From Nocardioides zhouii (GTDB lineage Bacteria > Actinomycetota > Actinomycetes > Propionibacteriales > Nocardioidaceae): a stretch of DNA of 64,000 bases. Shown here piece after piece: positions 18,871-47,899 of the stretch (positions are counted from its first letter, which is position 1; each line of letters starts with the position of its first letter). The notes below the pieces were generated by a model. The model saw only the letters and a program-made list of their open reading frames with translations, was not told the origin of the DNA and made no database searches. A program made the translations under genes and the position numbers. The stretch is from the NCBI RefSeq assembly GCF_004137345.1, contig NZ_SDWV01000003.1, positions 62,001 to 126,000 on the forward strand. Reading direction: 5' to 3'.

Positions 18871-19236
18871 GTGCGGCTCCTCGACCTCTCCGACCTCCCC
18901 CACCGCCCCATCGAGGCGCACGGGAGTCACGGGTTCTCGGTCGGTGCGTTCGGGATCAGCGCCGACGCCCACCTGATCGCCGTCGCCCTCGTCCCCGGCG
19001 GCACGATCGGTCGCCACCCCGCGGCCGGACGGCAGCTGCTGGTCGTGCTCACCGGCGAGGCCGAGGTCAGCGGTGCGGAGCTGACCGTACGCCGCATCGG
19101 CCCCGGCCAGGCCGCAGTCTGGGAGCCAGGCGAGGTCCACGAGACCCGCTCGCCCCGCGGGATGACGGGGATGATCGTCGAGGGCGACCTCGACATCGGC
19201 GCCCCCGGCGAACAGGTCGACCCCGGCGACGTCTGA
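18871..19236 (+). CDS. Small cupin-domain protein
   Basis: 121-aa single-domain cupin (beta-barrel) protein. The pattern GGTIGRHPAAGRQLLVVLTGEAEVSG and GQAAVWEPGEVHETRSPRG gives the two cupin motifs with His ligands. GTG 18871 directly follows the cphA stop with no gap, so it belongs to the cyanophycin operon. It may be a small sensor or metal-binding accessory for that pathway, but the role is unknown. A palindrome array begins 24 bp after its stop codon. Confidence 0.8.
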   Translation: MRLLDLSDLPHRPIEAHGSHGFSVGAFGISADAHLIAVALVPGGTIGRHPAAGRQLLVVLTGEAEVSGAELTVRRIGPGQAAVWEPGEVHETRSPRGMTGMIVEGDLDIGAPGEQVDPGDV

Positions 19237-19260: not shown

Positions 19261-19763
19261 GCGGTGCGTGAGACATGTTCTCGGCGTTCTGAAGGTGTCT
19301 CACCACCGCTCCGCGCCCCGCCTGCCGAGCGGTGGCCCAGCCACCTTCGTGCGCCAGGAAGTGTCGCTCCACCACCGCTCGGGCACGTGTCGGCGTACGA
19401 CGCGCGCGGCAGCGGTGGTCCAGCCACAGTCGACGCCCGGAGAGTGTGGCTCAGCCACCGCTCGCCTCGCTGGGAGCGGTGAGTGAGGGGCATTCCGACA
19501 CGTCGGCGTACGCCTCACGCACCGCCCATGGGCGTGTCGGCGTACGACGCGCCCGGCAGCGGTCAGTGAGGCGCCTTCCAGCGGATCGCAACCCGCCTCA
19601 CTCACCGCCCACGGTCGCCGCGCCTCGCGAGCGGTGGCCCATCCACCTTCGTACGCCACGAAATGTCGCTCCACCACCGCTTGGGTGCGTGTCGGCGTAC
19701 GACGCGCCCGGCAGCGGTGGTCCACCCACAGTCGAGGCCCGGAGAGTGTGGGTCAGCCACCGC
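19261..19763. repeat. Array of seven ~50-nt palindromes (GCGGTG...CACCGC)
   Basis: Fills the junction between the converging cupin and MFS genes. Modules: 19261-19309 (49 nt), 19329-19378, 19412-19461, 19476-19525, 19559-19608, 19631-19680 and 19714-19763 (50 nt each). Every module starts GCGG(T) and ends CACCGC, and the interior arms are largely complementary. The linkers after modules 2, 4 and 6 are all exactly 33 nt and share GTGTCGGCGTACGACGCG; the other linkers are 14-22 nt. The array is therefore built from 133-nt two-module units (50+33+50). Inner arms come in two sequence types, GCCAC/GTGGC and GTGAG/CTCAC. Short open frames across it are not believable genes. Confidence 0.85.
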
Positions 19764-21180
19764 TCGTCGGGGCATCAGTCGGGGCATCAGCCGGGGCATC
19801 GGCCGGGGCATCGGCCGGCACCGCGACCTCGGCGGGCACCACCCGCTCACCGAGGAGCGCCACACCTAGGGCCCCCACAAGAGACACCAGCGCGGTCACG
19901 ATCACGGCGCGGTGCCAGCCGTCGACCAGCGCCTGGGCGGTGACCGCACCGACGGGCGCAGCGACGACCGAGACGACGGTGACGCCGAGGGCGGAGCCGA
20001 GGTAGCGCGCGGTGTTGTTGGCGCCGCTGCCGAGACCGGCCTGGCCCGGCGGGACGCTGGCCACGCTCTCGCGACCCATCGCCGCGTTGAGCACGCCGGT
20101 GGCGATGCCGGCGAGCAGGAGGCCGGGGACGAAGGCCGCGGGGCCGCTGGTCGTGCCCACGCCCAGCACCAGCAGCTGGCCGACGCCGATCACGAGCAGC
20201 GCGCCGGCCATCTGGTTGCGGCCGCTCCAGCTCGCGGGGAGCCGACGCGCGCCGATCGCCGTCACCACGCTGGGTGCCGACCAGGCCAGCATCAGCCAGG
20301 CGGCGGTCGTGGCGGAGATGCCGAGACCCGCGCCGACGAACCCGGCGACGTACGACATCAGCGCGATGATGCCGGCCCCGGTGGCCAGGCCGGCGATGTT
20401 CACCGCGCGGAAGGCGGGTCGGTGGAGGAGGCCGAGGTCGAGCATCGGGTGGGTCGAGCGTCGCTCGACGAGCACGAAGCCCGCCAGCAGCGCCAGGCCC
20501 GCGGCGAGCAGCAGCACCGGAACCGCACCCCACCCACCGCGGCCCTCGGTGAGCCCGGCGAGCACGGCAGCGGTCCCGGACGCCATCAGCACGACGCCGG
20601 CGACGTCGAGCGGCGCCCGGTGCGCGCTGCGCGATTCCGGGCAACCCCGGCCGGCCACCGCCAGCGCCAGCCCCGCGACGCCCAGGACGACGTACACGTC
20701 GCGCCACGAGTGGAGCAGGCCCAGGTAGTTGCCCAGGAGCGGACCGATGGCGATGCCGGCGCCGATGCTCGCGCCCCAGATGCCCGTCGCCCTCCCCCGC
20801 TCGACCGGGTCGGGGTGCGCCTCGGCGATCATCCCCAGGCCGGCCGCGACGACGGCTGCGCCACCCGCGCCGGCGAACACGCGCGACACGACGAACGTGG
20901 TGACATCGCCTGCGACAGCGCCGAGGAGCGAGGACACGCCGAGCACCAGCGCGCCGATGACGAACCAGCGCCGCCGGCCGTAGTCGTCGGCCAGCCGGCC
21001 CGCGGTCAGCAGGAACGCGCCGAGGCCGATGCTCATCGAGCTCAGCACCCAGGTGCCGCCGGCATGTCCGGCGCCCAGCCCGGCGACGGTCTGGTTGAAG
21101 TTGGCCAGCGGGGCGGTGAAGGCGACCAGCACCGCGACCGTCCCGAGCGAGGCGGTGATCAGCGTGCGTCGGGCCGTCAC
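19753..21180 (-). CDS. MFS transporter (DHA2-like drug efflux type)
   Basis: 475-aa proton-coupled efflux pump in the inner membrane. About 14 hydrophobic segments. Motif A GRLADDYGRRRWFVIG is between helices 2 and 3 (residues about 62-77), with GIWGASIGAGIAIGPLLGNYLG (motif C) around helix 5. GTG 21180 is chosen for the AAAGGA element just upstream. The C-terminus is a low-complexity PADAPADAPADAPTDAPTSGG tail, and the last codons and stop are encoded by the right arm of palindrome module 7. Divergent from an HxlR regulator that probably controls it; the exported compound is unknown. Confidence 0.9.
   Translation of the reverse strand: MTARRTLITASLGTVAVLVAFTAPLANFNQTVAGLGAGHAGGTWVLSSMSIGLGAFLLTAGRLADDYGRRRWFVIGALVLGVSSLLGAVAGDVTTFVVSRVFAGAGGAAVVAAGLGMIAEAHPDPVERGRATGIWGASIGAGIAIGPLLGNYLGLLHSWRDVYVVLGVAGLALAVAGRGCPESRSAHRAPLDVAGVVLMASGTAAVLAGLTEGRGGWGAVPVLLLAAGLALLAGFVLVERRSTHPMLDLGLLHRPAFRAVNIAGLATGAGIIALMSYVAGFVGAGLGISATTAAWLMLAWSAPSVVTAIGARRLPASWSGRNQMAGALLVIGVGQLLVLGVGTTSGPAAFVPGLLLAGIATGVLNAAMGRESVASVPPGQAGLGSGANNTARYLGSALGVTVVSVVAAPVGAVTAQALVDGWHRAVIVTALVSLVGALGVALLGERVVPAEVAVPADAPADAPADAPTDAPTSGG
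19767..19814. repeat. Four 12-bp tandem repeats in the MFS gene
   Basis: Units of (T/C)CGGGGCATC(A/G)G encode the repeated Ala-Asp-Ala-Pro/Thr-Asp-Ala-Pro tail of the transporter. They directly abut palindrome module 7. Confidence 0.75.
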
Positions 21181-21193
21181 GACACGTCCTTTA

Positions 21194-21204
21194 GTTCGAT
21201 GAAC
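21194..21204. promoter_or_regulatory. Candidate HxlR operator
   Basis: The perfect inverted repeat GTTCGATGAAC (4-bp arms, 3-nt spacer) lies in the 50-bp gap between the divergent MFS and HxlR starts. Its position fits an operator serving both promoters. The arms are short, so chance is possible. Confidence 0.35.
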
Positions 21205-21218
21205 AGACCAAACCACGA

Positions 21219-47766: not shown

Positions 47767-47899
47767 GCGGTGGCCGAGCCACCTTTGCGGCGCCGCAAAG
47801 GTGGCTGGATCACCGCACACCGGTCAGTCGTCGACCGCCCCGCATCTCGGCGGTGGCCGAGCCACACTCCAAGCGCTGCGAAGGTGGCTGGATCACCGC
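47767..47899. repeat. Pair of 50-nt palindromes with 33-nt linker (second locus)
   Basis: Modules 47767-47816 and 47850-47899 both start GCGGTGGCCGAGCCAC and end GGTGGCTGGATCACCGC. They are 50 nt each with a 33-nt linker, the same 83-nt pitch as the 19.3-kb array. The first is nearly perfect: its 25-nt halves are complementary at 22 positions. The second keeps the outer pairing but has a diverged centre. Again they lie between two converging stop codons (47754 and 47916). Confidence 0.85.

Follow-up and report, generated by a model that had tools for sequence, protein, structure and literature searches.

Paired palindromes at gene ends in Nocardioides and a likely AbiEi/DUF559-like partner gene of a REPIN-like repeat family

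The window, a 64,000-nucleotide stretch of a Nocardioides genome, contains an array of seven palindromes at 19261-19763 that we interpret, with a probability of roughly two in three, as a cluster of non-autonomous doublets of a REPIN-like family, for which an AbiEi/DUF559-like gene outside the window is the likely partner. The family has about 100 copies in this genome, mainly as doublets of one inner-stem type with a 50+33+50 architecture.

The array occupies the gap between two convergent genes: a plus-strand cupin-domain gene (18871..19236; PF07883, E=2.7e-6), with its stop 24 nt upstream of the array, and a minus-strand MFS transporter gene (19753..21216; PF07690, E=2.7e-36), with its 3' end at the array. 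The seven modules of the original prediction are real and its coordinates are correct; six are 50 nt long and one is 49 nt. Palindrome 1 (19261..19309), the 49-nt member, is type C-like (GTGAGACATGTTC) and has the weakest PSSM score, 3.2. Palindromes 2 (19329..19378) and 3 (19412..19461), both of type A, are the left and right members of doublet 1, separated by a 33-nt linker (19379..19411) with a central GTGTCG..CGACGC dyad. Doublet 2 consists of the type B palindromes 4 (19476..19525) and 5 (19559..19608), the latter beginning GCGGTC, on either side of a second 33-nt linker (19526..19558), and doublet 3 of the type A palindromes 6 (19631..19680) and 7 (19714..19763), with a 33-nt linker at 19681..19713. 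Palindrome 7 overlaps the 3' end of the MFS transporter gene by 11 nt. As had been noticed, all three 33-nt linkers are exact in length and share a sequence, GTGTCGGCGTACGACGCG. Doublets 1 and 3 lie within a 166-nt direct repeat of 87% identity. The gaps between modules are, in order, 18 (counting from 19311), 33, 14, 33, 22, and 33 nt. The seven modules of the array are not equal: the types run C, AA, BB, AA, the 33-nt linkers are confined to same-type doublets, and the remaining gaps (18, 14, 22) are irregular. The window also has a second doublet, missing from the earlier list, with type A palindromes at 47767..47816 and 47850..47899 and a 33-nt linker at 47817..47849. Adjoining the array, the stretch that codes for the C-terminus of the MFS protein contains a 12-nt tandem repeat (19768-19818; ..PADAPADAPADAPTDAPT..). 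An Rfam search of the window gave no match at gathering scores, which rules out a known RNA family, at that level, as the identity of the palindromes.

The genome-wide search proposed with the original prediction shows enrichment over chance: the pattern GCGGTG-N4-A-N28-T-N4-CACCGC has 82 matches in the genome, versus none for the same pattern read backwards, and the looser GCGGTG-N30-44-CACCGC has 175 versus 67. Scanning 606,627 bases of this genome with a PSSM yielded 39 copies, and the reversed sequence yielded none whichever threshold between 8 and 20 was applied; some of the scanned stretches had been picked for holding copies, and the PSSM was partly built from them. The commonest linkers between neighboring palindromes are 31-34 nt long, and 67 of the 71 neighbors with such a linker share their inner-stem type. 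This supports the two-hairpin block as an amplifying unit, but arrays also extend by single 83-nt (or 72-nt) periods. We make no claim of helical phasing among linkers (11-12, 22, 33 nt), because the secondary linker peaks are few and come partly from tandem arrays. A phage origin was rejected after a strict pattern gave no match in viral contigs.

Covariation was assessed on the 39 copies from this genome against 500 shuffles, with p-values that are only indicative because the copies are related. The outer six pairs are almost invariant. Pairs 13/38, 15/36, and 16/35 covary above all 500 shuffles, and pairs 7/44 and 8/43 covary weakly (p 0.03 and 0.008). Paired changes in the arms, as first reported, are thus found at some positions but not at others, since 9/42 and 10/41 are paired less often than in shuffles; these two inner positions prefer a mismatch. 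The compensated changes are consistent with a folded hairpin as the thing conserved, but a protein that binds the dyad on double-stranded DNA could also keep the arm symmetry. The linker as a third hairpin was dropped, the 33-nt linkers having a weak central dyad and no convincing covariation.

Placement was examined with gene calls from a custom codon-usage caller, applied to 606,627 bases of this genome, to a further 400,138 of six relatives, and to named GTDB loci totaling 232,962. The resulting set holds 192 copies, four of them counted twice (L048/L105 and L059/L093), and many of its loci were fetched for holding copies. None of the 192 lies inside a called gene; 185 fall in 94 gene junctions and the other seven at locus or contig ends. 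Those junctions comprise 61 convergent, 33 co-directional, and no divergent cases, while divergent stretches make up 177 of the 557 intergenic stretches of at least 50 nt (Fisher 7e-18 for the depletion). The median distance from the stop codon to the first hairpin is much the same in every arrangement: 23, 20, 21.5, and 19 nt (n = 59, 59, 10, and 22).

Such regularity is what would be expected if the palindromes were ordinary hairpins of transcript 3' ends, acting as terminators or exonuclease blocks and kept by selection on the host genes, that happen to flank a nuclease-like gene. Beyond the fixed stop-codon distance and the convergent bias, this explanation draws on the 40 convergent junctions with copies that were searched for additional hairpins, of which 10 have one outside the copies and 30 have none found. 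The U-tract of an intrinsic terminator is absent. After 150 stop-proximal hairpins the fraction of T is 0.51 at base 1, 0.02-0.15 at bases 2-9, 0.29 at base 10, and 0.39 at base 12. At least four T in eight bases follow strong hairpins at frequencies of 0.05 (n=20) and 0.04 (n=48), compared with 0.07 and 0.09 at other 3' ends and 0 in a divergent control. U-tract terminators were rejected on this basis, although few U residues follow the remaining 3'-end hairpins of these genomes either. Termination without a U-tract and blocking of exonucleases after Rho termination are equally possible 3'-end roles for such hairpins.

A member of the family downstream of crgA (G000:C47:126431-126470, L135; L122-L133) is single-copy and near-identical in 32 of 215 genomes, with 0-3 mismatches in 40 nt including the loop; 30 of those 32 are among the 36 repeat-rich genomes. 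Most outgroup genomes have, by eye, another hairpin with a T-rich tail at the crgA site, so that a family member seems to replace an ordinary terminator there, a further point in favor of ordinary 3'-end hairpins. The crgA hairpin of G155 has a compensated stem and the same TGGGGAAG loop. We rejected this ultra-conserved hairpin as the sole source of the family because G009, G028, and G168 have repeats together with a different crgA terminator. Two other elements were seen at the same site. By eye, most of 30 genomes, carriers and non-carriers, have a DnaA-box-like cluster (..GAATTACAC..GTGTAGTTATCCACA..) between crgA and its downstream neighbor (L122-L133 and L134-L163), and several species (L134, L147, L150, L124) have a different hairpin element (CTTGTCAGGC..CCGACATGTTCAGCGATCCCCGGTCAGCCGGGG).

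Taxonomic distribution and turnover speak against selection on host genes as the full explanation. At least five copies occur in 36 of 215 genomes of the genus (this one included), with a maximum of 150, and fewer than five in the other 179. In a tree of the crgA region from 30 genomes, with G090 and G148 left out, all 20 sampled carriers fall in one clade of 22 (support 100/99), within which the repeat-poor G115 and G144 nest. A stricter pattern matched 30 stretches in the GTDB collection of 84,980 genomes, all from Nocardioides, in a search that may omit records close to this genome. Among 391 genomes drawn evenly from the order, the 50-nt architecture recurs with other inner stems in a second genus of the family, at low copy numbers (5, 5, 4, 2, and 1); many single matches elsewhere in the order resemble coding sequence. 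In one genome of that second genus, G484, three of four copies lie in divergent regions, unlike in Nocardioides.

Copy number also differs between relatives. The cupin gene of the window junction is present in 25 of the 30 genomes searched (this one included), and copies follow its stop directly in eight of the 25 by PSSM (this one included), with a ninth, G148, found by eye. The intergenic stretch that holds the second doublet of the window is 161 nt long, versus about 3 nt in the relative G097, and G022 has four copies at a site where its near relative G199 has two; both comparisons are compatible with either direction of change. None of 40 sampled copies from this genome is at least 90% identical to a non-local copy, indicating no recent dispersal, while in G023 10 of 20 are, indicating recent dispersal.

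The original prediction likened the array to REP/BIME elements, a logic that is supported by our results, including the placement at 3' ends, and proposed looking for a REP-associated transposase. PF01797, the model for RAYT (HUH Y1 transposase), has no match in this genome and one among 215 genomes of the genus, where the assembly concerned is 86% complete and free of the repeats; the same search was positive in 5 of 14 known genomes used as a control. No GTAG or CGTC tag was seen by eye at the foot of the palindromes in the listed flanks, which are mostly GA/GG/CG/CA before and TC/CC/TG/CG after. The idea of classical REP/BIME elements moved by a RAYT, for all that the placement and doublet logic match those of published REPs and REPINs (PMC3733652, PMC3116915), is therefore close to untenable.

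Several published systems nonetheless invite comparison. REPINs (PMC3116915, PMC6006769) are built on a palindromic doublet whose members favor a certain distance (71 bp in the case of Pseudomonas GI), and are extragenic, form tandem clusters, and come in several types, each adjoining its own single-copy gene. The present family shares the doublet unit, preferred spacing, extragenic clusters, and types with their own gene. It differs in its partner, which is AbiEi/DUF559-like rather than an HUH Y1 enzyme; in its 50-nt palindromes, with a long, variable inner stem and no GTAG tag seen; and in the orientation of doublet members, which by eye look direct, not inverted, where asymmetry shows. The CGTC-tagged REPs (Di Nocera 2013, PMC3733652), apparently without a dedicated transposase, likewise adjoin the 3' ends of convergent and unidirectional genes, but their stems measure 8-9 bp and they bear an end tag; neither 'actinobacteri' nor 'nocardioid' occurs in the main text of that article. 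Tandem hairpin-cluster terminators (PMC8355165) place at least one hairpin soon after the stop, often without a U-tract and with clusters preferred in high-GC genomes, as our hairpins also follow stops without a U-tract; that study reports that neither the vicinity of the stop codon nor the surroundings of the hairpins are conserved in sequence, whereas sequence, length, and spacing are common to our dispersed family. Among the open-licence literature matches listed, nothing concerned such a family in Nocardioides or a combination of DUF559 with REP-like repeats.

A candidate partner emerges from the genes that the repeats frame. Copies lie within 450 nt on both sides of only four of 1244 called genes: two homologs of a single gene, an MFS transporter, and an AAA/luciferase-like fusion. 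In this genome the gene (G000:C46:27449-28387) encodes a protein of about 312-313 residues and is framed by doublets of the same kind as those in the window, and a third homolog, from the second genus (L227), also has palindromes on both sides. We searched 40 chosen genomes, 32 repeat-bearing and 8 repeat-poor, for orthologs at 48% identity or more. Orthologs were found in 28 of the 32 versus none of the 8 (Fisher 6e-6), a correlation drawn from one clade with few independent losses. The repeat-bearing genomes in which none was found are G090 (46 copies), G148 (9), G168 (8), and G009 (6); a 30% paralog is present in G009 and a 29% paralog in the repeat-poor G020. Six gene-less relatives have 1, 1, 6, 8, 9, and 46 copies, versus a median of 50.5 in relatives with the gene (Mann-Whitney 0.0012). 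G014 has a second homolog, at 48%. Three of the 28 gene copies look interrupted, by an in-frame TAG in G055 and by a two-frame split in G065 and G150; G150 is the genome with the most repeats, 150.

Palindromes occur on both flanks in 28 of 28 orthologs, as judged by a finder that admits degenerate copies (one mismatch in the outer 12 letters of a palindrome, 13 of its 21 pairs); in G015, where the reading frame runs on, the downstream pair was seen separately from the other 27. Neither this two-sided flanking nor the scarcity of copies in five of the six gene-less relatives is expected of ordinary 3'-end hairpins. The locus is the same in all 28 genomes, with a BrkB/YihY-like gene before and a convergent SdhB-like gene after. 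Such constant neighbors mark a fixed site, as expected under vertical inheritance, and a cognate gene that keeps its place and is framed by repeats is also the REPIN arrangement, though the gene here is not a RAYT. Shared control is suggested by TCCACA, a motif present within 110 nt upstream of the partner gene in 26 of 28 genomes (L232-L259) and at least twice in 16 of them.

The partner group scores below Pfam cut-offs: AbiEi_3_N matches 9 of 28 members at E<=1 (best 0.0028), and the best values for MTES_1575 and DUF559 are 0.073 and 0.18. Its profile, however, finds paralogs at E=1e-36 to 6e-21, and these do score. DUF559 is above its cut-off in the paralogs L260 and L047, REase_MTES_1575 reaches E=7.7e-8 in homologous paralogs (below its cut-off), L261 matches the PADLOC AbiEi model at E=1.3e-10, and a signature E..D..EYxGxxH is common to the partner group and the paralogs. 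The protein is therefore assigned, by homology, a putative nuclease role, with an AbiEi-like N-terminus and a DUF559/REase-like C-terminus of PD-(D/E)XK type. An AlphaFold model built from two sequences was unusable (pLDDT 44), and a PDB profile search returned nothing credible; the best match, a cytochrome bc1 subunit at E 0.058, was rejected.

The REase-like C-terminus and the PADLOC AbiEi matches of the paralogs could point to a self-recognition or selfish defense module, for which the dispersed palindromes would be protective or addictive sites for the nuclease. We regard this as highly unlikely. The immediate neighbors are BrkB/YihY-like and SdhB-like in 28 of 28, so that there is no adjoining toxin (AbiEii included) or methyltransferase, and genomes without the gene exist.

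Protein and palindromes are also linked through the palindrome types, which are our own definition. The classified copies around any given partner gene are all alike in type, which gives 15 genomes with A, 5 with B, and 8 with C. The spacing within doublets is 70-73 in C genomes (8/8) and 79-84 in A and B genomes (20/20). Residue 26 of the protein is R in 15/15 A, D in 5/5 B, and G or S in 8/8 C, and so predicts the type in all 28 cases. Six type changes are needed on a protein tree that leaves out the first 66 alignment columns, while the N-terminal part alone requires two, the minimum. Copies 3' of the partner stop codon match the gene's type as well. Dispersed copies with intact outer arms, which are not independent of one another, follow the same trend: A in 74 of 90 in five A-gene genomes; C in 21 and A in 9 of 36 in three C-gene genomes; and, in a small sample of ten from two B-gene genomes, 3 B and 5 B-like. 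Read most simply, these data mean that the inner stem is recognized by the N-terminal part, which the palindromes on both sides follow, and residue 26 may act as a recognition code, with Arg for the GCCACATT stem, Asp for GGGGGATT, and Gly or Ser for (A/G)CAGGTT. A match between lineage-specific inner stems and one protein residue is hard to reconcile with hairpins maintained for the host genes, an explanation that, on all the evidence above, we consider distinctly unlikely.

Known AbiEi proteins are the antitoxins in type IV toxin-antitoxin systems, and their own promoters contain inverted repeats to which they bind. An AbiEi-like transcription factor might repress itself through the flanking copies and run a regulon through the dispersed ones, all acting as operators, with no mobility involved. 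The AbiEi-like N-terminus, the copies upstream of the partner gene's own start, and the residue-26 correlation, which fits plain DNA recognition, all agree with this. Operators would not be expected to follow stop codons and to be missing from all divergent, promoter-rich junctions (0/94), nor to lie after the stop of the partner gene too, and a nuclease-like C-terminus in homologous paralogs does not suit a plain repressor. The system further differs from AbiEi antitoxins in having no adjoining toxin gene, an extra REase-like part, and palindromes that are two-sided and dispersed. A purely regulatory role thus seems unlikely.

Some distant paralogs have flanking repeats of their own, unrelated to the window family. 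L261 (G020) has palindromes on both sides (1361-1420/2419-2482); L260 (G009) is flanked by a 79-nt direct repeat, 71% identical (1314-1392/2410-2488), with an imperfect dyad by eye; and L047 has repeats or palindromes downstream, after 676. In about 487 kb of G020, no further palindromes of the L261 type were found at two mismatches per arm. At three mismatches the motif gave 86 matches there, whereas a scrambled version gave 35, as did the motif itself in sequence from the window's genome, and by eye no clear palindrome was among the extra matches. These paralogs hint at a general rule, and suggest a class wider than the window family.

From these patterns we infer binding, cleavage, and mobilization by the partner, and a 3'-end role for the palindromes. 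Under the doublet-and-partner reading, the N-terminal part of the protein would read the inner stem, with residue 26 as one determinant, and two protomers would bind the two palindromes of a doublet, setting the spacing at 83 or 72 nt. The nuclease part would help in copying, moving, or keeping doublets uniform. Copies would be tolerated in the least harmful place, immediately downstream of stop codons, and each hairpin there may form the 3' end of the upstream transcript, as a terminator-like structure or an exonuclease block. The broader proposal, a second, independently evolved class of REPINs in which an AbiEi-DUF559 protein keeps or moves doublets by means of a recognition code and a spacing that it sets itself, has in our judgment a slightly better than even chance of being correct. 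What was first observed in the window is confirmed, and its first interpretation is partly supported.

Palindromes that are dispersed but have no known transposase are a long-standing puzzle, of which the CGTC REPs are a published example (PMC3733652). Comparative genomics points here to a concrete candidate for such a partner outside the HUH enzymes, the AbiEi/DUF559-like gene, and the natural changes of specificity in this gene make recognition testable through a single-residue swap. The palindromes are also a case of repeats occupying the 3' ends of host genes. As a whole, the family looks like an unrelated counterpart of the REP/RAYT system.
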